The notes: a model not told the origin generated them from the letters alone. Shown: positions 4,199 to 36,571, counted from the first letter of the stretch. The stretch is 64,000 bases of DNA from an uncultured Planctomycetia bacterium (GCA_903929765.1 CAIYVX010000023.1:1-64000), one strand, 5' to 3'. Translations and numbers: made by a program.

Positions 4199-5497
4199 TC
4201 AGGCGAGATAGGGCAGGACGTAGGCGCCTTTGGGCATGACGGTGATACGGGCATTGGGGCCGTGCTTGGCGAGGGCCTGGGCGAGGCCGGCTTCGAGCGA
4301 GCGGACGGGCGTGACGAAAAGCTTGTGCTGCAAATCCCAATCGAGGAAAGAGGAGTAGAAGAGGACTTCGTGCTTGGAGCAGACCTTGTGGAGGTATTGC
4401 AAGGCCCACTGGTCTTTTTCGACGTAGCCGCGCGTCAGGGCGTCGTGCATGAAGGCTTCGAGGGTGGGGTAGCGGAGGCACATGGCGGTGAACTCGGGGG
4501 AGCCGAGGCCCTCGGCGCAGGCCATGGCGTAGAGGATGGTTCCGCCGGGCTTGAGGATGGGCAGGGCGGCGATCAGGCCCTTCTGGCTCTGATAGTAAGT
4601 GAGGTCGAGCGGGTAGCCGCAACTGGTGGAGATGACGATGTCGGCGGGTTCGGGGACGGCGACGCGTGTGCCGCGCTCGGCGTGGAGGACGGCTTGCTGC
4701 CAGGCGGCGCGCCAGTCGCCGGCGAAGACGCCGGTGAGGCGGACCTGGCGGTTCAAGGTGACGTTGACGAGGAAGTGTGGCGGGCAGAGGGCGGCGACGG
4801 CGTGGGAGAGTTCGTTGACGGGGTTGCCGTCGATAATGCCGGGCAGGGCGTTGGGGTGGCCCATCATATCGGTGGCGTGGAAGCGTTTGACGGTTTCCTC
4901 GCCGGCGACGCCGGGGCAGAGGCCCTTGCGTCCGCCGGACCAGCCGGCCATCATGTGCGGCTCGACGAGGCCGGTGAGGAGGCGGAGGTCGGCGTCGACC
5001 CAGCGGCGGTTCATGAGGACGGTGGTGTCGAAGATGGTTTTGCCGACGGGGCGAAGAGTTTCGGTTTTCCAGGATTCGTGGCTGACGACTTCGACGCGGG
5101 CGGCGACGTCGGGTCCGACGAGTTCGACGATTTCGGAGGAGAGGGCGGCGCGGTGGAGGCCGGTGGCGATGAGGATGGTGACGGAAGAATCGGCGACTCC
5201 GGCGGCGCGGAGTTCGGCGAGGAGCGGCAGGAGGATTTCGTGATTGGGGCAGGGGCGGGTGATGTCGGAGATGACGATGACGGTGCGGAAATCTTTCTTC
5301 GTGCCGACGGCGCGGCGGCGTTCGGCGACGACTTCGGCCAGCGGCGGGCAGCCGGTGGGGCGGCGCAGGGCTTCGGTCACGGCGGCCTGTGGATCGTGGA
5401 GCGGCGCGAGGGCCTGGTCTTCGACGATGGCGATGAGGTTAGAGTCGGGGACGTCGAGGGTGAGGCCTTCATGATGGTAGGCTAATTTGATTTTCAT
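4199..5497 (-). CDS. larA: LarA-family nickel-pincer racemase/epimerase (DUF2088)
   Basis: The protein has 432 residues from the chosen ATG, close to the usual length of LarA. It carries the family motifs: DITRPCP near residue 90, ATGLHR (His about 112), VEPHMMAGWSGGRKGLCPG (His about 177, Lys about 189, the pincer-cofactor lysine) and a Rossmann-like C-terminal half. LarA uses a nickel pincer nucleotide to racemise lactate or related 2-hydroxy acids; many homologues act on other substrates. None of the cofactor synthesis genes larB, larC or larE is in the window. An upstream in-frame extension is rejected because TATAAT lies six bases before this ATG, which predicts a nearly leaderless mRNA. 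The symbol marks the family, not a proven lactate substrate. Confidence 0.85.
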   Translation of the reverse strand: MKIKLAYHHEGLTLDVPDSNLIAIVEDQALAPLHDPQAAVTEALRRPTGCPPLAEVVAERRRAVGTKKDFRTVIVISDITRPCPNHEILLPLLAELRAAGVADSSVTILIATGLHRAALSSEIVELVGPDVAARVEVVSHESWKTETLRPVGKTIFDTTVLMNRRWVDADLRLLTGLVEPHMMAGWSGGRKGLCPGVAGEETVKRFHATDMMGHPNALPGIIDGNPVNELSHAVAALCPPHFLVNVTLNRQVRLTGVFAGDWRAAWQQAVLHAERGTRVAVPEPADIVISTSCGYPLDLTYYQSQKGLIAALPILKPGGTILYAMACAEGLGSPEFTAMCLRYPTLEAFMHDALTRGYVEKDQWALQYLHKVCSKHEVLFYSSFLDWDLQHKLFVTPVRSLEAGLAQALAKHGPNARITVMPKGAYVLPYLA

Positions 5498-5503
5498 GGC
5501 GGA

Positions 5504-5509
5504 ATTATA
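5504..5509 (-). promoter_or_regulatory. -10 box of a leaderless promoter for the larA-like gene
   Basis: The minus strand reads TATAAT followed by six bases and then the ATG. Transcription would start at or next to the start codon, and no Shine-Dalgarno sequence is present. The -35 region is weak. Confidence 0.55.
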
Positions 5510-5571
5510 ACGCGTGGCGGAGGAAAATTCCAGTCTGGGCGATGGTTCGCAGACGCCGCGTGGGTGCAAGC

Positions 5572-6576
5572 CTAAACCAGCCTTCGCGTCCACTCCGCCA
5601 CCTGCTGCACCGTCGACCATTCGATGCGGTCGCCCAGGTGGCGGTTCACGCGGTCAACCACGATCTTCAGCGAATCGAAGCCTCGCCGTGTCCCATTAGA
5701 GAATAACGTTTGCCCGTGGGCATGGAACACCGCCGGCCCACCCGAGGCGACCAGGTCCACCAGCCGCCCGCTCCGACCGTCGGCCGCGATGAAGTACTCG
5801 GCCATGGTCAGCGGGTCGCCGGCGTCTCCGTAGAGCGAGGCCCAGAACGGCTCGTCGGCCCGGATGCCGCTCCAGATGCTGACCACGCTCTCACCGGCGG
5901 CCTGGTCATCGACCATCACCCGGGACGGCGCCGGCAGGGCCGTCGCCTCGCAATCCAGGAAGAAGAACGTCCGCTTGATCCCGCACGCCTCCTTCATGGC
6001 CCGCAAGACCGCCCTGGCGTACAGATCCCTGTCGCCCGGGAAGTAGCCCGGCTGGGTGATGCCCGTCGGCCGCAGGCCCACCTTTTGCAGCACCCGCAGT
6101 GCTCCGGCCATATAGTCCGCCAGCGTCTCCTCGTTCTGCAGGCCCATCCACTCTGGTTCAAACACCGGCCGCAGTCGCCGCTCGGCCATGTCCCAGGCCA
6201 TCGAGTGGGTCCAGATTTCCGGAGTGATGTCGAACGGTCCCAGCAGTTCTTCGCGGACGATGCAGAGCAGTTCTGAAAGCTCCGCCGCCGAGTAACCCTC
6301 GACCCGGTCGTCGATCGTGCCCAATCCCGCGGGGCAGGGCAGCATGGTGAACTTGCCTTTGACGCCGGCGTCGCGAGCCCAAGCCGCGAATTGCCGCCAG
6401 AAGTCGTTTGGAATAAGCATCGACGGTTCCTGCCGCCGCCAATCGGCCACGAACGTTCCGAACGCCCCCGTGGCCGGTCGGCTCACCCCCATTTCCTCGG
6501 CCTGCCGCCGCATCCAGTACGAGGAGTTGATCGGCGGATCGTCGATAATGAGTGCCATTGGGGTGCGTTCAGCCAT
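5572..6576 (-). CDS. Uncharacterised protein, possible polysaccharide-deacetylase-like barrel
   Basis: The product has 334 residues, no signal peptide and no membrane segment. The N-terminus contains ALIIDDPP followed by an aromatic-rich stretch, and later come GKFTMLPCP, PEIWTHSMAWD, ITQPGYFPGD, VFHAHGQTLF and a WSTVQQVAEWTRR C-terminal helix. Alternating short beta strands with acidic or His ends suggest a (beta/alpha) barrel like that of polysaccharide deacetylases, but the canonical HxxxH metal motif is not evident. The ATG was chosen over an upstream one because AGGAG lies five bases before it. It precedes the larA-like and GH43 genes on the same strand, which suggests a carbohydrate-related role (inference). 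Confidence 0.7.
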   Translation of the reverse strand: MAERTPMALIIDDPPINSSYWMRRQAEEMGVSRPATGAFGTFVADWRRQEPSMLIPNDFWRQFAAWARDAGVKGKFTMLPCPAGLGTIDDRVEGYSAAELSELLCIVREELLGPFDITPEIWTHSMAWDMAERRLRPVFEPEWMGLQNEETLADYMAGALRVLQKVGLRPTGITQPGYFPGDRDLYARAVLRAMKEACGIKRTFFFLDCEATALPAPSRVMVDDQAAGESVVSIWSGIRADEPFWASLYGDAGDPLTMAEYFIAADGRSGRLVDLVASGGPAVFHAHGQTLFSNGTRRGFDSLKIVVDRVNRHLGDRIEWSTVQQVAEWTRRLV

Positions 6577-26068: not shown

Positions 26069-27139
26069 ATGTCCACGTTGCGCATCGCTCTTGCTGTCAC
26101 CGTTCTTGCGGCCGCCTTGTGTTCGCCTGCTGCCGCCGCAGCCTACACCGTCACCGACTTGGGGCAGGGCCAAGCTTACGGTATCAACAGTTCCGGCGAG
26201 GTTGTTGGCACCTTCGGCCTCTACAACGGCGGCGTAACGACCCCCCTTGGAGGCACGGCCTACGGCATCAACGATTCCGGGCAAGTCGTTGGTACCTTTG
26301 GCCTGTATAGTGGAGGCGCAACAATCGGCCTTGCAGGAACGGGCTACGCTATCAATAACGCTGGGTATGTGGTCGGACAGAACAGTGGCCAAGGGCAGGC
26401 TTACGTCTACAATATCAACGACAGAAGGACATACGGTCTTGGAACTCTGGGCGGTGCGACAAGCTGCGCCTATGGCATAAACAGCGCGGGACAGGTTGTC
26501 GGCGGGTCACTCCCGGCGAACAGCGGTGGTTATCCCAATTTGCCGAACCCATTCACCTGCACGACCACGACCTACCGAGGCCATATTATTGGATCAACCA
26601 TGACGAACCTTTTGACATATACTAGCCTTCCAAGCTTCGATTACCAATATTGGCCGAGCCAGGCCCAAGGAATAAACAACGCCGGGACGATTGTCGGCTA
26701 CATGTACGATTCCAACTTCATCGCCTTCCAATACAGCAACGGAGCTTTGACAGTCCTCGGAACGCTTGCCGGGTTGAATCCCCCCGAAGGGGCACCCGTT
26801 TGGTGCGGATACAGCTATGCTGAAGCAATAAACAACGCCGGTCAGATAGTGGGTGCCAGTACGCCGGGGAGTAGTGAACAAGCATACTTTGGACCATTAC
26901 ATGCCTTCATCTACGACAATGGTGTTATGACCGACCTCAACAATCTCATCGATCCGACCTTGGGCTGGACGCTTGAATATGCCCAGGCAATAAACGACAA
27001 CGGCCAAATCGTCGGCTACGGAATCGGCCCGGACGGCAACACTGACGCTTTTCTTCTGACGCCGACTCCCGAACCGGCCACGATGAGTCTGCTAGCCGTG
27101 GGGCTGGCCGCACTGGTGGCGCGGCGCAGGCGAAGTTGA
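26069..27139 (+). CDS. PEP-CTERM exported protein with HAF-type repeats (first copy)
   Basis: The 356-residue protein has a signal peptide (LRIALAVTVLAAALCSPAAAA) and about seven repeats of the form YGINxxGQVVG, the HAF/extracellular repeat pattern that probably builds a beta-propeller. It ends with the PEP-CTERM sorting signal: EPATMSLLAVGLAALVARRRRS. Such proteins are processed by an exosortase and placed in the envelope or extracellular matrix. GGAGG lies upstream of the ATG. No exosortase gene is in the window. Confidence 0.9.
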   Translation: MSTLRIALAVTVLAAALCSPAAAAAYTVTDLGQGQAYGINSSGEVVGTFGLYNGGVTTPLGGTAYGINDSGQVVGTFGLYSGGATIGLAGTGYAINNAGYVVGQNSGQGQAYVYNINDRRTYGLGTLGGATSCAYGINSAGQVVGGSLPANSGGYPNLPNPFTCTTTTYRGHIIGSTMTNLLTYTSLPSFDYQYWPSQAQGINNAGTIVGYMYDSNFIAFQYSNGALTVLGTLAGLNPPEGAPVWCGYSYAEAINNAGQIVGASTPGSSEQAYFGPLHAFIYDNGVMTDLNNLIDPTLGWTLEYAQAINDNGQIVGYGIGPDGNTDAFLLTPTPEPATMSLLAVGLAALVARRRRS

Positions 27140-27168
27140 ACATCAGACATCTTTGCGGAGGGCTGCTC

Positions 27169-28119
27169 ATGGTTACGTTGCGCATCGCTCTTGCTGTCAC
27201 CGTTCTTGCGGCCGCCTTGTGTTCGCCTGCTGCCGCCGCCGTGGCCTACACCGTCACGGACCTGGGGCCGGGCAATGCCCGGGGCATCAACGACGCCGGG
27301 CAAGTCGCCGTAGCGTACGCGGTCAATGGCTGGGTTTACAATAGCAGTAATGGCACGACGACATACCTCATCGACGGCGCTGCGTGCGCCATCAACAATC
27401 CGGGCCAAGTAGCCGGGGGGATGCCTGGGTGGGCCCCACCTTTCATCTATAGTAATGGAGCGTACACTTGGTTGCCGACGGGGAATAATTACGGCTATGC
27501 GAACGGCATCAACAACGCCGGCCAGGCCGTCGGCAGCTACTATCCGTCCGGTTACCCCGGCACCTCCTACGCCTTCCTTTATAGCAACGGGCAGCTAACC
27601 AACCTCGGGTCCGGTACTGCGTGGGGCATCAATAATTCGGGGCAGATTGCCGGGCAGAACGGGGCCGGCGATGCCTTCATCCGTAGTGGTGGCAAGACGA
27701 CCGACCTTGGGGCGGGGGCCGCTTATGCAATAAATGACTCCGGCGTGGCCGTAGGGCAAAACGGGGCGGGCGATGCCTGCATCTGGGTTGGTGGTGCGAT
27801 GACCGACCTCGGCTTTGCGGGCTGTGCCTACGGGATAAACGGGGTCGGCCAGGTCGTCGGAGGGAATGGCACAGGAGCCTTCCTCTACAGCGGCGGGGTG
27901 ATGACGAATCTTAACACACTCATTGATCCGGTATCCGGCTGGACGCTCGAATGTGCCTATGGCATAAACGATAACGGCCAGATTTGCGGGTACGGCAGGG
28001 AAACAGCAGGCCCCATGATGGGGAGTACGGAGGGCTTTCTGTTGACGCCGGAGCCGGCCACGATGGGCCTGCTCGGCCTCGGCCTGGCCGCGCTGATCGC
28101 CCGCCGCAAACGCAAGTAA
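27169..28119 (+). CDS. PEP-CTERM exported protein with HAF-type repeats (second copy)
   Basis: The 316-residue paralogue follows after 29 bases. Its signal-peptide DNA is identical to that of the first copy over about 60 bases, whereas the repeat region has diverged. It carries repeats such as AWGINNSGQIAGQNGAG and ends in EPATMGLLGLGLAALIARRKRK, a second PEP-CTERM signal. The ATG was chosen because GGAGGG lies nine bases upstream; a TTG further upstream is in frame but lacks an RBS. Confidence 0.9.
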   Translation: MVTLRIALAVTVLAAALCSPAAAAVAYTVTDLGPGNARGINDAGQVAVAYAVNGWVYNSSNGTTTYLIDGAACAINNPGQVAGGMPGWAPPFIYSNGAYTWLPTGNNYGYANGINNAGQAVGSYYPSGYPGTSYAFLYSNGQLTNLGSGTAWGINNSGQIAGQNGAGDAFIRSGGKTTDLGAGAAYAINDSGVAVGQNGAGDACIWVGGAMTDLGFAGCAYGINGVGQVVGGNGTGAFLYSGGVMTNLNTLIDPVSGWTLECAYGINDNGQICGYGRETAGPMMGSTEGFLLTPEPATMGLLGLGLAALIARRKRK

Positions 28120-28371: not shown

Positions 28372-28620
28372 TTACTGCGGGGCGGAGATGTCCTGGGCGA
28401 AGAAGTCGAGAATGATTTTGCGGTAGGTGTCGCCGTGGCGAAGATCGACGGCGTCGCAATGGCGGCCACCGGGGACACAGATGAAAGTTCTAGGCTGGGC
28501 GGCTTGGTCGTAGAGGCTCCGGCCCTGGTTGAAGGGGACGATCTGGTCAGCATCGCCGTGCAGCACCAAGAGCGGCGTGGTGACGAGGCGGTTGCCACAA
28601 TGGCCACTTGACGGACATCC
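28372..28620 (-). pseudogene. Truncated alpha/beta hydrolase (C-terminal part only)
   Basis: The frame reads TPLLVLHGDADQIVPFNQ, the catalytic-Asp strand of an alpha/beta hydrolase, then PGGRHCDAVDLRHGDTY with the catalytic His region, and ends normally. Upstream of NRLVTTP the similarity stops, and the nucleophile elbow is absent. The gene was cut at about 28.62 kb, which marks a rearrangement at the left side of the capsid-encoding island. Confidence 0.7.
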
Positions 28621-28825
28621 CGTCCCCCCGCCACCTGGCCGCTCGCAACTGCCACGTCACCCATATACTATGACGTCTGTCCACACGAGGTCTATCCCTT
28701 CGGAGACGACTGCGTTGACGACCGAAATATTCTGGACGGCTGGACTGCTACGCCAACGTCGCGCAAGATATGACACTGGAAGGGGTTAGCGACAGGACGG
28801 AAATTATTCGAGAAGATTTTTTCAA

Positions 28826-28914
28826 TCTGCTTTACGAATAGCCCCTCCGGTGGGAAATAAGTTGTTAGGCGGGCAATAGTGCCCCCGCGACAATGGCAAA
28901 GGAGAAGAGCGATG
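28826..28914 (+). repeat. Duplicated leader, copy 1
   Basis: This copy shares CTTTACGAAT, GGGAAATAAGTTGTTAG, a hairpin and GGAGAAGAG plus ATG with the copy 47 bases further on. Its hairpin is GCGGGC-AATAGT-GCCCCCGC (28869-28888). The ATG at its end opens a frame of only a few codons, so this copy leads to no gene. Confidence 0.7.
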
Positions 28915-28960
28915 GTCTGGGGTTAGGGGCAGCACGACTTTTTTTGATGGAATTTTCCCG

Positions 28961-29054
28961 TCTCGCTTTACGAATCGGCCCTTCGACGGGAAATAAGTTG
29001 TTAGAGGGGGGTAATGGTGCCCCCCAAGACCACTGGCAAGGAGAAAAGAGTATG
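28961..29054 (+). repeat. Duplicated leader, copy 2, in front of the first island gene
   Basis: This copy ends in the RBS (AAGGAG) and ATG of the first island gene. Its hairpin is GGGGGG-TAATGGTG-CCCCCC (29006-29025). The stems differ in sequence between copies while both remain paired, which argues for a functional RNA structure. The DNA between 28620 and the first copy shows no gene. Confidence 0.7.
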
Positions 29055-29597
29055 ACGCGAATCGGGTTGACGTTCGAGGAGTACGTGGACCTCAAGTTGA
29101 AGCCGCATGCAGGGGCCGACCGGGCTTTCCACGAGGCGGCCGAGATGGAGGCGGCGCAGATGTTCCCGATGACCCTGGCGGGGGCGTCCAGCCACCTGCG
29201 GTCGCGGGGCTATGACTGCCGCCCGGAGATGTTGGAGGTGCTCGTCCGCAACGAGGTGGTGAAGCCCGCCGGCGAAGACGCCTGGTCTCAAGCGGACGTG
29301 GACGTCGCCGCCGAACACTTCGAGGAGGCCCAGATGTTCGTCCCGTACGCCGACATGTGCCTGACGTTGGGCTGCCGCTACGCCGATTTTGTGCGGCCGC
29401 TGCGCGAGGCGGCAGAACGGGAATCGGCCAAGTATGGCTGCCGGGTGATCAACGACGACCAATACTTCGTCATGCACCGCGAACCGCCCCGGGGCGTGAC
29501 CGGCGCGGACGGAGAGTACACGATCAAACCGGCGGTCATCACCTTCACGCTCTGCGACGACATTCGGGAACGCCTTGAACACGGCGAGGAGGTCTGA
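29052..29597 (+). CDS. Island protein of unknown function
   Basis: The 181-residue protein is acidic and soluble. Notable stretches are TFEEYVDLKLKP, SHLRSRGYDCRPEMLEVLVRNEVV (which could be a small winged-helix or MerR-like segment), DVDVAAEHFEEAQMFVPYADMCLTLGCRYADFVRPLREA and a beta-rich end. The ATG was chosen because AAGGAGAAAAGAGT lies directly upstream; the longer frame runs through the duplicated leader. It is followed after two bases by the sigma-like gene and is probably translationally coupled to it. Confidence 0.75.
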   Translation: MTRIGLTFEEYVDLKLKPHAGADRAFHEAAEMEAAQMFPMTLAGASSHLRSRGYDCRPEMLEVLVRNEVVKPAGEDAWSQADVDVAAEHFEEAQMFVPYADMCLTLGCRYADFVRPLREAAERESAKYGCRVINDDQYFVMHREPPRGVTGADGEYTIKPAVITFTLCDDIRERLEHGEEV

Positions 29598-29599
29598 TT

Positions 29600-30229
29600 A
29601 TGGCCTCCGAACCACAGGAACTGAAACTGACACCTGACCTCTTGGAGTACGCCAAGGCGGTGGCGATCAAGGAGGCTCCCAAACATTGCCAGATGCATCT
29701 CTCTCGCCCAACTGGTAGGCGGTCCGAATTCGATGAGAAACCTTGGGATGACGTGGTTCAGCAGGTCATTCTGCAGTTGCTAAGGCGTCCACCGAAATAC
29801 GACCCGTCGCGGGGGGCTTCGCCCAAGACGCTCATCTACATCATCGTGGTCAGGGCGCTCATGAAGTACGGCACCCGCGAGCATAAACTTACGGAGCCCC
29901 TGCAGCAATTTGATGAGACGGTGAACGTGTCATCTGAAACTCCTCCCGGCCTGACGAACGAGCAGTTGCAGACACATCAGCACCTGACCGGCAAGGGGCC
30001 GACCAAGCATGAGGAGATCGAAGCCACCGTGGATGACATGCTTCGCTTCATCGACAGCGAGGATAGCCGGGCCTTGTGCAAACTGGTGATCGAGTGCCAG
30101 GGCAACATGAGCAAAGCGGCGAAGCGTCTGGGCCTGTCCGAGGGGACGGTTCGCCATCGACTGAAGATGTTAGGTCCGAAGTTATTGGCAGCGGGATTCA
30201 ACCCGTTTGCGACAGAGGAGGAAACATGA
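29600..30229 (+). CDS. Sigma-70-like regulator of the island
   Basis: The 209-residue protein resembles a minimal sigma factor: a helical middle (DDVVQQVILQLLRRPPKYDPSRG..SPKTLIYIIVVRALMKYG) like region 2, and a C-terminal helix-turn-helix (NMSKAAKRLGLSEGTVRHRLKML, about 172-194) like region 4. It could drive late expression of the capsid gene, whose start overlaps its stop (ATGA). It may instead be a transcription activator without core-polymerase binding. Similarity is by motif only. Confidence 0.7.
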   Translation: MASEPQELKLTPDLLEYAKAVAIKEAPKHCQMHLSRPTGRRSEFDEKPWDDVVQQVILQLLRRPPKYDPSRGASPKTLIYIIVVRALMKYGTREHKLTEPLQQFDETVNVSSETPPGLTNEQLQTHQHLTGKGPTKHEEIEATVDDMLRFIDSEDSRALCKLVIECQGNMSKAAKRLGLSEGTVRHRLKMLGPKLLAAGFNPFATEEET

Positions 30230-32106
30230 CGGCAGTTGCGGAACCGGTTGAAATGCGGGCAGAAGTTCTGAACCTCGTGGCCGACGTAACCCTGAGCGCC
30301 GCCGCCGGGAGTCCTGATAAACTCCCGACGGCGAGCATCATGGCCTACGCCGGCGGCCTCATGAGGGTTCCGGCCTGGGGCGACATCGTCATCGATTTCA
30401 ACGGCCTCGACGTGTCGGCGGCAGTGACGCTGTTGAGCGACCACGATTCGAGCCGCCGGGGCGTTTTGGGGCATGGCCGAGCCAAGGTGGTCGGCGGCCA
30501 GCTGATCGTGGCGGGCACAATTTCAGCGGCGACCCAGGCGGCCAAAGAGATCGTGGCGGCGGCGAAGAATGGGTTCCCGTGGCAGGCCTCCGTCGGCGTC
30601 GAAGTGCTGGCGCAGCGGCGTGTGGCGGCGGGTGAAACGGTAGCGGTGAACGGCAGGACGATCAAAGCCCCGGCGGGCGGGTTTGCGCTCGTTACCCGGG
30701 GACGTCTGCGGGAAGTGAGTATTGTCGGCATCGGCTGCGATCCGGCCACCAGCGTGGCGATTGCAGCCGCCAGGAAACAGGAGAGGAAAATGGAGACTGC
30801 GGTGATGGTGGAGCAGCAGGAAGTTCAGACCCAGGAGGCCGAGACGGTCGAGGCCGGGCGTGTGGCGGGCATTCAGAAGATCTGTGCGGGGCGGTTCTCG
30901 GAGATCGAGACCAAGGCCATCGACGAGGGCTGGAACGAGAACCAGACGGAACTGGAGGTGTTGCGGGCTTCGCGTCCGAGGGCACCGCAGGCCCACATCC
31001 CCCAGCAGCGGGTGCCGACGGCGACGAGCCTGGAGGCGGCTATCCTGACGCACATGGGCATGACCGGCCTGGGCGAGAAGGCTCTGGGCGCTCCGGCGAT
31101 GGAAATGGGCTCGCAGATGCACGTGACGCACATGCTCGACATTTGCCGCGCCGCGCTGCTCTCGGAGGGCCAGGAAGTGCCGCATGGCCGCCTCGACCTG
31201 GTGAGGGCGGCGCTTTCGACCATGGCGCTGCCCGTGGCGTTGGGCAATGTTGCCAACAAGATTCTCCTGAACGCTTATATCGAGTCGCCGGCGACCTGGC
31301 GGTCGTTCTGCTCGACCCGGAACGTTCCGGACTTCAAGCCCAACACCACCATCCGGCCGAGCTTCACCGGCAACCTCCAACCGGTTGCGCCGGGCGGCGA
31401 ACTCAAGCATGGCACGGTCACCGAAACGACGGTGTCGTTCGCCATCGACACCTACGGCAAGTTGCTCGGCGTGGACCGCCGGGACATCATCAATGACGAT
31501 TTGGGCCTCTTCCATGACGCCGCCGCAGCCCACGGCCGGGCCGCTATGCGGAGTCTGAACGACCTGGTCTACTCGGTCCTGCTGGCCAACGCCAACGGCT
31601 TCTTTGGCAGCGGCAATGGCAACTACCTGAGCGGGGCCGATAGCGCGCTCGGGTTCGACGCCCTGGCCTCGGCCATCTCGCTGATGCGGTCGCAGCGTGA
31701 CGCCGATCATAACGACCTGGACCTGAAGCCCGCCGTGCTGCTCGTGGGGCCGGATAAGGAACCGCTGGCCCGGGCGCTTTTGCAGAGCGATTACATCATG
31801 CAAGCCGTCGGTCAGCCGATGGGCAACTCCCTGCGGCAGGCCGTGAGCCTGGAAGTGGAGCCGCGCCTCTCCAACAGCGCCAAGTTCGGTTCGGTGGCGA
31901 GCGGGCAACAGTGGTTCCTGTTCACCAACCCGGCCTTCGCCGCGATGGTCGTGGCCTTCCTGAACGGGGTCGAGACGCCGACGGTGGAATACTTCGGCTT
32001 GGAGCAGACCGTTGAACGGTTGGCCGTCAGTTGGCGGGTCTTCTTTGATTATGGCGCAGGCCTCTGCGATCCGCGAGCCGGAGTGATGAGCAAGGGCCAG
32101 GCCTGA
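30226..32106 (+). CDS. Prohead protease-major capsid protein fusion
   Basis: The 626-residue polyprotein starts with a prohead-protease-like domain (about 20-180): TLLSDHDSSR with the candidate catalytic His, FPWQASVGVEVL with the candidate Ser, and RLREVSIVGIGCDPATSVAIA, the usual ending of the S78/U35 fold. A charged linker (about 185-280) may act as scaffold. The rest matches HK97-type capsids: MRSLNDLVYSVLLANANGF, LMRSQRDADHNDLDLKPAVLLVGP, and a beta-rich end with TPTVEYFGLEQTVERLAVSWRVFFDYGAGLCDPRAGV. Such fusions are known from some phage genomes. GAGGAGGAAAC precedes the ATG. Confidence 0.85.
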   Translation: MTAVAEPVEMRAEVLNLVADVTLSAAAGSPDKLPTASIMAYAGGLMRVPAWGDIVIDFNGLDVSAAVTLLSDHDSSRRGVLGHGRAKVVGGQLIVAGTISAATQAAKEIVAAAKNGFPWQASVGVEVLAQRRVAAGETVAVNGRTIKAPAGGFALVTRGRLREVSIVGIGCDPATSVAIAAARKQERKMETAVMVEQQEVQTQEAETVEAGRVAGIQKICAGRFSEIETKAIDEGWNENQTELEVLRASRPRAPQAHIPQQRVPTATSLEAAILTHMGMTGLGEKALGAPAMEMGSQMHVTHMLDICRAALLSEGQEVPHGRLDLVRAALSTMALPVALGNVANKILLNAYIESPATWRSFCSTRNVPDFKPNTTIRPSFTGNLQPVAPGGELKHGTVTETTVSFAIDTYGKLLGVDRRDIINDDLGLFHDAAAAHGRAAMRSLNDLVYSVLLANANGFFGSGNGNYLSGADSALGFDALASAISLMRSQRDADHNDLDLKPAVLLVGPDKEPLARALLQSDYIMQAVGQPMGNSLRQAVSLEVEPRLSNSAKFGSVASGQQWFLFTNPAFAAMVVAFLNGVETPTVEYFGLEQTVERLAVSWRVFFDYGAGLCDPRAGVMSKGQA

Positions 32107-32198
32107 TCGTAATGCAGTAGCCCACGAAACGGGGGGCGGGGTTCTGATCTCCTTGCCCCGCCCCCCAACTTCTTTTTCACATCTAACCGGAGACCCAC

Positions 32199-33854
32199 AT
32201 GGTTGTCGCCGAAGAGAGGGCGGCCCCGGCGCATCTAGCGGAAATTCCGCTAGATGCGCGAAGCGCCGCCGGGCCTCAACTGCTCCGCGACTACGACGAC
32301 GGCGCGGGCTGGCCCAATGCCACCCGCGAGAAGGAACTCGCCTTCCGCAAGGGTTTCGTCGAAGAGGCCCGGCGCATCGTTCGCGCGTGGCCGGGCCACG
32401 ACGAACAGATGCATCTCCAAGAGGCCGAGGAACGCGCCGCCCACCAGTTGCGGCTTCGGGTGCGCGAGCGGTATGCAGTCTACGGTGCTGCCCACGGCCC
32501 TGGCTGCGCGGGACGCAAAACATACCACCTTGGCTACCGGCCCGGCCACGAAGTGCCCGCCGCCCGCCTGCGCGGTCGTCACCACGCCCTGGCCTATGTG
32601 ATCCAGTCCTGGGATGAGACGGCGGACTCGAAGATGTACGAGCGGATCATCCTGCCCGCGTGGTTGACGGCCGTCGAGCGGTGGGCCGAGCGCCCAATCA
32701 GGCCGGACAGAACCACGCCGCCGCCGAGGCCCATCGAGATCGAGGAGGCCGCGCCGTACCTGGCTGAAGTGGCAGAGGCGGCTTCACGGAGTGATTCGCA
32801 GGATGCGAACAAGCCCCCGGCGGATGCACCAACCGCGCCGCCGCCGTCGCGGTTGCGGTTGCGCCTCACCCGCGCCGACCAGATCGAAATGCGCCCGCCC
32901 GACTGGCTGCTCCGCGGCATGCTCGAACGCGATATGTTGGCCCTGATTTTCGGCGACCCCGGCAGCGGCAAATCATTCCTGGCCATCGACTGGGCCTGCC
33001 GGGTGGCCACGGGGACACCTTGGCGCGGCCACGGCGTCCGCGTCGGGCCGGTGCTCTACATCGCCGGGGAAGGTCGTCAGGGATTCGGACGGCGCGTGCG
33101 GGCCTGGCAGGAGCACAACGGGGTGAGCATGGACGGTGCGCCCTTGTTCGTCGCCCCGGCGCTGGCCATCTCCGATGCTCTCCAACTGGCCGACCTGGTA
33201 CAGGTGGTCGAGGCCACAGCCCCGGCCGAGCGCCCGTCGCTGGTGGTGCTCGATACCCTGGCCCGCTGCTTCGGCGGCGGTGATGAAAACAGCACTCAGG
33301 ACATGTCCCGGTTCGTGTCGGCCTGCGATGCCCTCCGGCAGCGCTGGGGTTGCACCGTGCTGGTGGTACATCACACCGGCCACGCCGACAAGTCCAGGGC
33401 TCGCGGCGCTATCGCCCTCAAGGCCGCCCTCGACGCCGAGTACCGGCTGACGAACAACGGCGGTCTGCTGCTGTCGGCCACGAAGATGAAGGAGGCCGAA
33501 ATGCCGCCGCCCTTGGTCATGAACCTGGCCACGGTGGAACTGCCCGGTCTCGTGGACGAGTATGGCAACCCCGTTACCTCGGCCGCCATTGAAGTACTCG
33601 ACGCCGACACCAGCGCGATCGTCTCCAAGGTCATGGCCGCCAAGCCGGGCCAGCGCGGCAAATGGCAGGAGGTCGGCCTGGCCGTCGCCCGACGGCTGTT
33701 GGCCCAAGGTGACGATGGGCAGGCCAGCGTGACGGACTGGCATGCCGAGTGCGAGAAAGCCGGGATGCGACAGTCCACCAGGTATCACGTGCTGGCCAAG
33801 CTGCATGCCCAGGGGACCGTTGTCGTAGACGGCGAGACGCTGGTTACAGCATGA
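32199..33854 (+). CDS. RepA-like AAA ATPase (hexameric helicase type)
   Basis: The 551-residue protein has an N-terminal region of about 210 residues without a clear domain, a Pro-rich linker (about 195-220), and an AAA_25/RepA-type RecA fold. Walker A is FGDPGSGKSFLA (about 250-260), VLYIAGEGRQGFGRR follows, Walker B is SLVVLDTLARC (about 347-357), and VVHHTGH is a sensor-like strand. The C-terminal 90 residues look like a winged helix (DWHAECEKAGMRQSTRYHVLAKL). RepA-like ATPases unwind plasmid or phage origins. A perfect palindrome lies inside its first 25 codons. The iteron block directly downstream supports a replication role. Confidence 0.85.
   Translation: MVVAEERAAPAHLAEIPLDARSAAGPQLLRDYDDGAGWPNATREKELAFRKGFVEEARRIVRAWPGHDEQMHLQEAEERAAHQLRLRVRERYAVYGAAHGPGCAGRKTYHLGYRPGHEVPAARLRGRHHALAYVIQSWDETADSKMYERIILPAWLTAVERWAERPIRPDRTTPPPRPIEIEEAAPYLAEVAEAASRSDSQDANKPPADAPTAPPPSRLRLRLTRADQIEMRPPDWLLRGMLERDMLALIFGDPGSGKSFLAIDWACRVATGTPWRGHGVRVGPVLYIAGEGRQGFGRRVRAWQEHNGVSMDGAPLFVAPALAISDALQLADLVQVVEATAPAERPSLVVLDTLARCFGGGDENSTQDMSRFVSACDALRQRWGCTVLVVHHTGHADKSRARGAIALKAALDAEYRLTNNGGLLLSATKMKEAEMPPPLVMNLATVELPGLVDEYGNPVTSAAIEVLDADTSAIVSKVMAAKPGQRGKWQEVGLAVARRLLAQGDDGQASVTDWHAECEKAGMRQSTRYHVLAKLHAQGTVVVDGETLVTA
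32229..32259. repeat. Perfect 31-base palindrome inside the RepA-like gene
   Basis: Arms GCGCATCTAGCGGA and TCCGCTAGATGCGC are separated by AAT. The stretch is translated as AHLAEIPLDAR without breaking the frame. Confidence 0.95.
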
Positions 33855-33874
33855 CGTTCCAGCAGCTCTTCCAA

Positions 33875-34066
33875 CATTCCAATTCCAATGTCCCTGTAGG
33901 GACATTGGAATTGGAATGGAAGTTGGAATGAGAGCCGAAAATTGGAGATTGGAAGTTGGAATTGGATGTTGGAATGACGGGAACGCCTTGTGCCGTAAGC
34001 ACTTACGCATCGCGGCAGCAAGGCGAGAGGCAGCAGATTGGAATGTTGGAATCCGATGTTGGAATC
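33875..34066. repeat. Iteron array with a perfect 20-bp hairpin (origin candidate)
   Basis: The block begins with perfect 20-base arms (33875-33894 and 33899-33918) around the loop TGTA. Within and after the second arm, TTGGAA occurs nine times, often as TTGGAATG or GTTGGAAT, up to 34066. No convincing gene overlaps it. Position directly after the RepA-like ATPase gene suggests a replication origin of the excised element. From 34067 to the zinc-finger gene the sequence shows only decayed-looking open frames. Confidence 0.75.
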
Positions 34067-34338
34067 GACGGGTCCGAAGCCGCTATCGCCACCATGTTGG
34101 GCGTGGTTCCTCTCTCGCCAATGGCCTCGCCGGACGGCAAGCGGAGTAGCCGGCGTCCTGCTTTTTGTTTGTTATCGCGACGCACACGCGAGGTGGCCAC
34201 GGTGGCGACGTGAGTTTTCTTGGTTCCTTACTGCCCGAAACGCAAAGAGAGGGCACTGGGAGCAGCCGCGATGGGACACAGAGTTTGTTCAAGAGCGTGT
34301 CCATTCTGCCGTAACGCGCCACCGGAGGCATCGCCGCC

Positions 34339-34656
34339 ATGTTGATGGTCCTGACCCACGAAGCGATCCTGGAGGCCACGTGGCGGCTCTACGGCGAAGG
34401 TCGCGGCTGCCATCGCCACCAGTGCCGGGCATGCGGGCGCGAGTTCTTCAGCCGACGCCCCGAGGCCTGCTACTGCCGCGCCGCCTGTCGCCAGCGGGCC
34501 TATCGCCGGCGGCTTCGGCAATCGCACCATGCACAATTTGTACAAGATGCGCATCATACAACAGGTTGTAAGATGCCCGCGCGGTGGCCATCTATAACGG
34601 GCGTTATAGATGCGCTGCCGACCCCGGTCGCGTTGGCGGCCAAGGAAACAACTTGA
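34339..34656 (+). CDS. Small zinc-finger protein of the island
   Basis: The 105-residue protein carries CHRHQCRACGREFFSRRP followed by YCRAACRQRAYRRR, a zinc ribbon with two CxxC-like pairs seen in small phage and plasmid proteins. The N-terminus (LTHEAILEATWRLYGEG) is helical. GGAGG lies upstream of the ATG. DNA or RNA binding is likely. The C-terminal 35 residues are partly encoded by a palindrome and look unstructured. Confidence 0.7.
   Translation: MLMVLTHEAILEATWRLYGEGRGCHRHQCRACGREFFSRRPEACYCRAACRQRAYRRRLRQSHHAQFVQDAHHTTGCKMPARWPSITGVIDALPTPVALAAKETT
34589..34612. repeat. Palindrome in the zinc-finger gene
   Basis: CATCTATAACG and CGTTATAGATG are perfect arms with a GG centre. It is AT-rich compared with its surroundings and could be an operator or a small inserted palindrome. 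Confidence 0.85.
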
Positions 34657-34675
34657 GGCATAGGGAGTGACGAAC

Positions 34676-35050
34676 ATGGTCGCACTGGCCACCAACATCG
34701 CAGACAGGGCTGACCTGGAGCAGGAACCCCACGACGACAGGCGTTTCGCGTCCGGCAAGACCATCACTGGGCTGAGGCCGGAATTGGCTGGACTGCGGCC
34801 ACGACATGAGGCCTCATGTCCACGGTCCGGGACGGTCCCGGACCGGCCGTTGGACATCGCCTGGATCAGCGACGAGTTGCTCGCCAAAACCCGCACCGTC
34901 TGGTCGAAAGAGTATGGGCGGGTGATCTCCGAGAGCGAAGCCATCGAGATTCTGGTGAACGTAAAGCGGCTGGCGGAAGTTCTTCTGGGTCCCCAGTGGA
35001 GAAAGAGCAGCCATGAACGTGATCATTTGGACGCGCGTGTCGTCGCGTGA
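34676..35050 (+). CDS. Small island protein preceding the recombinase
   Basis: The 124-residue protein has a poorly conserved-looking N-terminal half and a compact C-terminal segment: IAWISDELLAKTRTVWSKEYGRVISESEAIEILVNVKRLAEVLL. That segment is helical and may be a small DNA-binding or recombinase accessory domain (inference). GGGAG lies eight bases before the ATG. Its end overlaps the recombinase start by 38 bases. Two palindromes interrupt the region between the two halves. Confidence 0.65.
   Translation: MVALATNIADRADLEQEPHDDRRFASGKTITGLRPELAGLRPRHEASCPRSGTVPDRPLDIAWISDELLAKTRTVWSKEYGRVISESEAIEILVNVKRLAEVLLGPQWRKSSHERDHLDARVVA
34803..34844. repeat. Two adjacent palindromes inside the small island gene
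   Basis: GACATGAGGCCTCATGTC is an 18-base perfect palindrome. Three bases later GGTCCGGGA and TCCCGGACC form a second perfect hairpin with a CGG loop. Together they encode RHEASCPRSGTVPDR in frame. Confidence 0.95.
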
Positions 35051-36515
35051 GCAAAGAGAAGGGTACAGCATCGACGCCCAGTTGCGGGTCACCCGCGACC
35101 GGGCGGCCAGGGAAGGCTGGCGGGTGGTCCGCGAGTTCGCCGTTGCCGAGTCGGCCAAGCGCGGAGCCGAACGCCTGGCCTTCAACGAGATGTTCGCCTG
35201 GGTTCGCAAGAACGCCCGCCGCGAGGGCATCCAGGCCATCCTGAGCCACAAACTCGACCGCGTCTGCCGCAACATGCGGGACGCCGTGCGTCTTCAGGAA
35301 CTCGAAGACCTCTGTGGCGTCAAGTTGGCTTTCGTTGACAACCAATTCGGCCCGGGCGCGGCCGGGGCGCTGTCGTTCAATGTCATGGCCGCTGTGGCCC
35401 AGTACTACTCGGACAACCTCCAGACCGAGGTCTTAAAAGGCATGGACGAAAAAGTTCGGCAGGGCTGGCTGCCCGGCTGGGCACCCTATGGATACCGCAA
35501 CGTGCCCGGCGACCGTGAGCAGCCGATTCAGATCGACCCGACTCCGGCCCGCGCCGTGGCCCGAATCTTCGAGCTCTACTCCAAGGGCGACACGACCTTC
35601 GAGGCCCTGGCCGACCAACTGGCCGCCGAAGGTTATGTCTACCGCCCGACCATGCCGCGTTTCTACCGCACCGAACTCTCCCGCATCCTGCACAACCGCT
35701 TCTACCTCGGCGAAATCATCTGGCACGGCAAGACCTATCCCGGCAAACAACCGCACCTGGTCTCCCGTGAAATCTTTGACCAGTGCCAGGCCATCCTGGC
35801 GGGCAAGAACCGCCGCTTCCGCAAGGCCGACCATTCCTATGCCGGCGGCCTGTTCCGCTGCGCCTATTGCGGCCAGTCGCTGACGGGCGAACGCATCCGG
35901 CGGCGGCTCAGGGGCGGCGAAGTTCGGGAGCACCTGTACTATCGATGTGCCAACAACCACCCCGGTCATGACCATCCGCCGGTCCGCTGGCGCGCCGAGA
36001 AGTTGGAGCAGGCCGTCCTCGACGAACTCGACAAACTGCGGCTGCCGACCGAGGAGTTGCAGGATTGGTTCCGGGAGTCGCTCGTCGCCGCGTTCGCCGA
36101 CGTGACCAACCACCATCGCCGCCAGACACAGGCCGTCGAGAAACGGCGCACCGATCTCAAGGGCCAGCAGGACCGACTGCTGAACGGTTATTTGAACGGC
36201 ATCATCGACGAGGCGGTGTTTCAGACCAAATCAGCGGAGTTTAAGTGCCTGGAAACCGATGTACGCGAATCGGGGGAGGCAGCCAGTGTGTTCGACCCGG
36301 CCCAGGGCCAACGCGTCCTCGAGACGTTTGATTTCAGCCAACGGGCGGCAGACGAGTGGCGCGGTTCAAACAATTCGCGTCGGCGCGAAATCATCGAGGC
36401 GGTGAGTTTGAACCGCGCTGTGAGTGACGTAAGTCTTTGTGTGACAAAGAGAAAGCCGTTCGACATTCTTGCCGAACGGCCTTCTGTTACATGTGGTCGG
36501 GGTGACTGGATTTGA
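35013..36515 (+). CDS. Large serine recombinase (integrase of the island)
   Basis: The 500-residue protein starts with the resolvase catalytic domain: IIWTRVSSREQREGYSIDAQL with the nucleophile Ser at about 10-11, SHKLDRVCRN and FNVMAAVAQYYSDNL. The recombinase domain follows (GWLPGWAPYGYRNVPGDREQPIQID, RILHNRFYLGEIIWHGKTYPG). A zinc ribbon (LFRCAYCGQSL..YYRCANNHPG) and a coiled-coil stretch (about 365-420) complete the family architecture. It should catalyse integration and excision between attP and the tRNA. The last seven codons and the stop lie inside the tRNA-Pro gene, so the end of the protein changes when the element excises. Confidence 0.93.
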   Translation: MNVIIWTRVSSREQREGYSIDAQLRVTRDRAAREGWRVVREFAVAESAKRGAERLAFNEMFAWVRKNARREGIQAILSHKLDRVCRNMRDAVRLQELEDLCGVKLAFVDNQFGPGAAGALSFNVMAAVAQYYSDNLQTEVLKGMDEKVRQGWLPGWAPYGYRNVPGDREQPIQIDPTPARAVARIFELYSKGDTTFEALADQLAAEGYVYRPTMPRFYRTELSRILHNRFYLGEIIWHGKTYPGKQPHLVSREIFDQCQAILAGKNRRFRKADHSYAGGLFRCAYCGQSLTGERIRRRLRGGEVREHLYYRCANNHPGHDHPPVRWRAEKLEQAVLDELDKLRLPTEELQDWFRESLVAAFADVTNHHRRQTQAVEKRRTDLKGQQDRLLNGYLNGIIDEAVFQTKSAEFKCLETDVRESGEAASVFDPAQGQRVLETFDFSQRAADEWRGSNNSRRREIIEAVSLNRAVSDVSLCVTKRKPFDILAERPSVTCGRGDWI

Positions 36516-36571
36516 ACCAGCGACCTCCTGGTCCCGAACCAGGCGCTCTAGCCAAACTGAGCCACACCCCG
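36494..36571 (-). tRNA. tRNA-Pro (anticodon CGG), CCA encoded
   Basis: Read on the minus strand, acceptor CGGGGTG pairs with CACCCCG, the D-arm is GCTC/GAGC, the anticodon stem CCTGG/CCAGG holds the loop TTCGGGA (anticodon CGG, proline), and the T-arm is GCTGG-TTCAAAT-CCAGT. The discriminator A is followed by a genomically encoded CCA. Its 3' end is the right attachment site of the capsid-encoding island. Confidence 0.95.

Follow-up and report, generated by a model that had tools for sequence, protein, structure and literature searches.

A capsid-encoding planctomycete element without packaging or tail genes: a likely shell-making phage satellite

What kind of mobile element would encode a virus shell and none of the proteins that fill the shell or give it a tail? 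The question is raised by a locus in a stretch of 64,000 nucleotides from an uncultured Planctomycetia bacterium (GCA_903929765.1 CAIYVX010000023.1:1-64000), the whole of which is called the window here. The genes at 28.6–36.57 kb, the shell gene included, are all of one orientation, and the 3' end of the last one, a recombinase, overlaps a tRNA-Pro gene. The element is most likely a virus parasite, because it has a shell gene without filling or tail genes and because its relatives are situated at tRNA ends or in phage structural genes. Judging from sequence comparisons, we consider it likely, though well short of certain, that this is a shell-encoding phage satellite of the tRNA type, which would build its own shell, use the portal, terminase and tail of a helper, and be packaged by the latter.

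Genes and boundaries of the window copy

An earlier note, made from the sequence of the window, named a sigma-like factor, a protease-capsid fusion, a RepA-like ATPase and a serine recombinase. All four are present and have Pfam and PHROG matches (Table 1), and the tRNA-Pro gene reported beside them is indeed there. The iteron block is real as well: ten of the thirteen TTGGAAT words of the 64 kb fall within 250 bp, where the rest of the window would predict 0.01. As the genes recur at 50–80% identity in other families, they do not form a chance set of ORFs.

Table 1. Features of the element and its borders (window coordinates)
Feature	Coordinates	Strand	Evidence or remark
C-terminal remnant of alpha/beta hydrolase gene, chromosomal, adjoining the element	28372..28611	-	65-aa fragment; homology ends near 28587
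Leader copy 1, TTTACGAAT..GGAAATAAGTTG	28831..28892	+	motif also upstream of the first gene in related elements
Leader copy 2, with hairpin-like GGGGGGTAATGGTGCCCCCC, directly 5' of g1	28967..29051	+	kept in 12 related elements
g1, predicted double-HTH-like protein, conserved first gene	29052..29597	+	23–78% identity, 12 elements
Sigma-like factor	29600..30229	+	Sigma70_r2 (PF04542) E=9e-7; phrog_1740; conserved in relatives
Protease-scaffold-major capsid fusion, Mu gpT/PF25209 type	30226..32106	+	PF25209 E=3e-39; phrog_4523 E=2e-70
RepA-like AAA_25 ATPase, putative replicative helicase	32199..33854	+	AAA_25 E=9e-46; phrog_2850 E=5e-61
Putative origin: (A)TTGGAAT iterons around a palindrome, 3' of RepA-like gene	33868..34066	+	repeat counts
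Small zinc-finger-like protein	34339..34656	+	phrog_6975 E=6e-7; 51–78% identity in other elements
Small protein p127	34667..35050	+	62% identity over 48 residues, L100
Large serine recombinase (integrase)	35013..36515	+	Resolvase, Recombinase, Zn_ribbon domains; phrog_95 E=9e-75
tRNA-Pro(cgg), integration target	36494..36571	-	ARAGORN; Rfam 66.6 bits
Putative attR core GTCGGGGTGACTGG	36496..36509	+	homologous to tRNA-Pro att repeats of L100 (23 bp) and L037 (13 bp)

The absence of portal, terminase and tail genes, which the earlier note had pointed out, is confirmed: none was found in the element by Pfam or PHROGs, a lysis gene likewise not, and reference TerL, TerS, portal, tail-tube and tape-measure proteins produced no tblastn match over the whole 64-kb window. 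With an integrase and an incomplete complement of virion genes, the integrative element answers to the general description of a phage satellite. AlpA had no match among the window ORFs, and no cos or pac site was identified.

The right limit of the element is the 3' end of the tRNA-Pro gene, and the left limit lies anywhere from 28588 to 28831, hence the copy is at most 7.9 kb long; it has no cargo, and its remaining genes are open. The hydrolase gene on the left, described earlier as broken, is reduced to its last ~75 codons, and both the same genome (a 308-aa frame on contig C40 of G000) and genome G001 (349 aa) contain full-length homologs. Neither exact repeats, nor a mismatch search, nor comparison with other left arms yielded a left att copy above chance. 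Since attL and cargo are absent, the length does not exceed 7.9 kb and the adjoining hydrolase is only C-terminal, the left end of the copy has probably been lost, a truncation that the earlier note had missed. The simplest account would be a deletion in which the left end was lost along with the cargo and the 5' portion of the hydrolase gene. The coding genes look intact, yet the copy may no longer be able to excise, given the probable loss of its left end.

The leader is doubled in the window, the copies being spaced about 136 bp apart, whereas the relatives have one copy; this may be a mark of duplication near the truncated left end. Further to the left (26069-28119) there are two neighbouring genes for PEP-CTERM-type repeat proteins, alike in sequence.

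The shell gene and the family of related elements

The shell gene encodes a single chain in which a helical middle part lies between a head-maturation protease and a major capsid domain similar to Mu gpT. The protein matches PF25209, phrog_4523 ('major head and protease'), phrog_133 and phrog_3244, and a PDB profile search with it retrieves gpT-type capsids. Residues H73, S122 and E163 of the protease part are invariant in 16 satellite and prophage sequences; in residue type and H–S spacing they may resemble the HK97 protease triad. The AlphaFold model of the capsid was too poor (pLDDT 55) and was left out of the fold searches.

Relatives of the capsid were found with alignment queries, as a short-pattern search with the single protein gave no match, its patterns being too specific. 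Two relatives in the same genome, on contigs C94 and C93, are 35–38% identical to it; those in other genomes are closer (55–66%) and have the same neighbour genes. A profile built from five family members was run on 397 genomes of the class, and its bit scores were 663–1153 in 21 genomes; a small intermediate group scored 478–562, and ordinary prophages no more than 438. As the profile came from five family members, the capsid tree serves as an independent check. Its 28 satellite capsids group in a clade (99/96), as do its 31 prophage-type capsids (100/100), with the intermediate group placed between the two. Satellite-clade capsids are present in 21 of the 397 genomes, and also in viral contigs. 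At L045 (G032:C16), only the first half of a capsid gene (5221-6156, 46% identity) lies beside a full prophage-type capsid gene on the same contig.

A search of genomes with the capsid and the ATPase, proposed in the earlier note, yields as recurring neighbours g1, the sigma-like factor, the RepA-like and zinc-finger-like proteins and the serine recombinase; the set g1-sigma-capsid-RepA-Zn-recombinase is conserved in other families and in IMG/VR contigs. Twelve elements, delimited by att repeats or by junctions, some of them with a precision of tens of bases only, are 10.06–11.57 kb long (mean 10.8, sd 0.51). The RepA-like ATPase is 53–79% identical in three other elements and 63–78% among the closer capsid relatives. 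The recombinase is 59% identical to that of L100, inserted at the same tRNA-Pro, and in a quick tree with SH-aLRT support only, the recombinase groups partly follow the target: the window copy with L100; L035, L037 and L231; the four cases in DUF5309-type head genes; and the two in tail-tube genes.

The g1 protein has no Pfam or PHROG match; its model is confident (pLDDT 93) and has no fold match in PDB or BFVD. The leader TTTACGAAT..GGAAATAAG is seen 5' of g1 in 12 related elements and might be a promoter reserved for the sigma-like factor. The folding of the hairpin 5' of g1 is only modestly better than that of shuffled sequences, hence we claim a sequence motif and not an RNA structure. TTGGAAT iterons occupy the equivalent place in L035, L037, L100 and L058, and in L036 and L066 it is taken by AACGTGAC-type repeats instead. 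Iterons at one place, but of differing type, fit an origin co-evolving with the RepA-like protein. Rfam matches at the iterons are miRNA-model artefacts, far below the gathering scores.

The same genes might also be what is left of a decayed full prophage, or a mosaic formed after the loss of packaging and tail genes. RepA-like homologs do occur in full prophages, beside methylase and terminase genes (L068, L102), the left flank of the window copy is damaged, and one locus described below, L104, suggests that deletions between satellite and helper happen. However, unrelated hosts share the short gene set, devoid of packaging genes, in elements whose ends are mapped and whose length is uniform, the satellite capsids are monophyletic and stand apart from those of full prophages, and the codon positions show constraint, position 3 differing 1.6–2.9 times more than position 2 between the window genes and their relatives. 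We therefore hold decay to be very improbable. Nor did we see any sign of a remnant of a larger known prophage, the outcome which the earlier note had set against its own reading, as the satellite capsid clade is separate; we reject the remnant reading on the capsid tree and the recurrence of the gene set.

Insertion sites, cargo and candidate helpers

The same gene set was found at other tRNA sites, as the earlier note had suggested looking for: at tRNA-Met in L035 (att repeat of 17 bp) and L231, and at tRNA-Pro in L037 (13 bp) and L100 (23 bp, in tandem with a second recombinase). The cultured Planctomycetales bacterium ZRK34 (CP050848) carries an intact relative, with tandem elements at tRNA-Pro. 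Other relatives interrupt phage genes. In L105 the TerL gene is split exactly at Walker B, between VVLD and DPQT, and joining the flanks produces RPSLVVLD-DPQTDES, in frame. The uninterrupted phage L164 reads the same there, its segments that match the two flanks being directly adjacent. The element of L066 interrupts the major tail (tube) gene (phrog_1407), whose flanks again join in frame, the intact gene being present in L148; L236 uses the same tail-tube site, as seen at its right end. The element in L067 (also L062, genome G096) lies in a tape-measure gene, close to its 3' end. Four others, in L227, L233, L237 (from the single-contig genome G166) and L239, interrupt a major head gene of DUF5309 type (phrog_1328) that has a portal gene beside it. 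In L038 and L104 a DNA methylase is cut at the same codon, after RKD, followed by the conserved left arm, and in L036 the element lies between phage genes. Integration specificity, gene content, its conservation and the restoration of TerL and the tail tube on joining the flanks can all be read directly from the compared loci.

The element is co-oriented with the interrupted gene at the TerL, tail-tube, tape-measure and methylase sites, and antisense to it at the DUF5309 sites; the latter orientation, unlike that in helper-embedded PICIs (HE-PICIs), counts against a satellite.

Two of these loci are rearranged. L058 (G065:C41:54001-74000) has two tandem recombinases amid inverted pieces of the portal and capsid genes of a DUF5309-type phage, with the N-terminal piece at one junction and an inverted flank, as if recombination had inverted part of the prophage. 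In L104 (1-16093) a satellite-type capsid and g1 follow the methylase cut at the att codon and are themselves followed directly by prophage tail genes, with no terminase, portal or recombinase matches in this interval; it is possibly a deletion fusion of a satellite and its helper.

The slot between the left end and g1 contains varied genes, which in most sampled elements are restriction-modification or otherwise defence-related. L035, L038, L058, L231 and L239 have type II restriction-modification there; L066 has a methyltransferase and an Mrr-like endonuclease, L233 a type I methylase-specificity fusion, and L237 a methyltransferase. The two-gene cargo of L037 (5012-8967) resembles, in PADLOC, ZacA (weakly) and ZacB, has a PLD-like domain and is possibly a divergent defence system. 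The slot of L227 matches the protease part of a reverse-transcriptase defence model, a match of uncertain meaning, and those of L036 and L240 have no defence match. Such genes would benefit the host, and one may ask whether the element serves mainly for host defence, its shell being a compartment or a phage sensor and no particle being transferred; the absence of packaging genes would agree with that. But packaging agrees better with insertion into structural genes of phages and with the uniform length, and the maturation protease points to a virus-like shell: an encapsulin-type compartment has an HK97-fold shell without a maturation protease and with a cargo protein, whereas here the capsid is fused to a head-maturation protease. 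Such a mainly defensive role seems to us very unlikely.

The same genome offers two candidate helpers, both with capsids of the related phage group. One, on C94 (L033, G000:C94:82001-102000), has a prophage-type capsid with terminase, portal and tape measure; the other, on C93 (L034, G000:C93:21001-41000), has a prophage-type capsid with a related terminase. Homologs of the C94 TerL (E<=1e-80) are present in 14 of the 21 satellite-bearing genomes and in 89 of the 376 others (p=6.5e-5, a statistic that ignores phylogeny). This association may come partly from shared host ancestry, and in some genomes the counted terminase belongs to the prophage hosting the satellite. Among the satellite genomes, G059 has no related TerL and G053 only a fragment, which counts against the satellite reading. 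Taken with the conserved gene set, the mapped att sites, the uniform size and the insertions into phage genes, the co-occurrence with full prophages gives strong support, by comparison, to the suggestion already made in the earlier note, that of a satellite with a shell of its own and the remaining parts borrowed.

Relation to known satellites and a proposed life cycle

HE-PICIs (Tommasini et al. 2023, PMC10111431) are satellites of Enterobacterales, about 10–20 kb long, that occupy late genes of prophages (those for capsid, terminase, tail and others), the gene being mended on excision. L105 and L066 are like them in that a late-gene insertion is restored when the flanks are joined, while the window copy is at a tRNA-Pro gene instead. 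Both groups have a replication module of their own and integrase groups or subgroups that follow the target sites, and a lone capsid gene is common in HE-PICIs as a single shell gene is found here (PMC10111431). On the other hand, HE-PICIs have an integrase with AlpA, a primase, and the hosts of lambda-like helpers (PMC10111431), whereas the planctomycete elements have large serine recombinases, a RepA-like AAA_25 ATPase, a sigma-like factor, a protease-capsid fusion, Planctomycetota hosts, and both tRNA and phage-gene targets. With another class of integrase, another replication gene, and other regulators and hosts, the element is not an HE-PICI; the best reading is that it works most like one without being a member, by convergence.

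Other satellites with capsid genes are further away. As PMC10690885 summarises them, capsid-forming PICIs (cf-PICIs) share with our element their own capsid and maturation protease, and use helper tails, but also encode portal, connectors and terminase; as portal and terminase are absent here, the element is not a cf-PICI. The Streptomyces satellites MulchRoom and MiniFlayer have their own capsid genes too, but along with genes for terminase, portal and scaffold; they have no primases, and the phages that they exploit are virulent (PMC10690885).

Gram-negative PICIs with a lone capsid gene, as PMC10111431 summarises them, have one head gene and need a helper, as is proposed here, but differ in integrase, regulators and capsid family. 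In the same paper their common capsid genes are reported as not required for transfer, and a backup copy is suggested, a point against a shell of the element's own. By analogy, the capsid could interfere with the helper capsid in a dominant-negative way or substitute for it, the element travelling in shells made by the helper; homology to the capsids of one helper group, at about 35–38% identity, would agree with this. However, at that identity co-assembly with the helper capsid, or its replacement, is less likely, and the shell gene has lost neither its protease nor its scaffold-like part, the candidate catalytic residues being invariant. Moreover, the same capsid clade is found in elements within DUF5309-type phages, whose capsids are from another PHROG family. 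We thus regard such interference or substitution as unlikely.

For the satellite that we favour, the following cycle may be proposed. The serine integrase, as the sequences show, inserts the element at the 3' ends of tRNA genes or, in the case of relatives, into genes of tailed prophages already resident, and embedding would hold the helper gene broken till the satellite leaves, as argued for HE-PICIs (PMC10111431). On induction of the helper or infection by it, the element would excise, mending the interrupted gene where embedded, and replicate from its iterons with its own ATPase. The g1-sigma-capsid operon would be turned on, and the one self-contained fusion protein, with protease, scaffold-like region and major capsid in one chain, would build the shell. 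Portal, terminase and tail would presumably be borrowed from the helper, which would package and tail the DNA. A stronger version has about an even chance in our view: Planctomycetota satellites, with an integrase unrelated to that of HE-PICIs, would have convergently evolved serine-integrase embedding in structural and packaging genes of two unrelated groups of tailed phages, together with a dedicated small one-gene shell, filled by the helper, for a genome of 10–11.6 kb.

If so, satellites became embedded in helper genes on more than one occasion, using different recombinases. With a minimal one-gene shell one may ask which parts of the head have to be a satellite's own and which may come from a helper, and the cargo slot is a systematic place to seek new defence systems. 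Satellite biology would also be extended to a new phylum, since no paper joining Planctomycetes, prophages and phage satellites was found in a search that left most subscription papers outside; provisionally, the family is new to the literature covered. It has been found so far almost only in planctomycetes. At L099 (CAUJGQ010000020.1) a satellite lies on a 6-kb contig binned as Chloroflexota, with a capsid about 80% identical to that of L037, which is either a transfer across phyla or a binning error.
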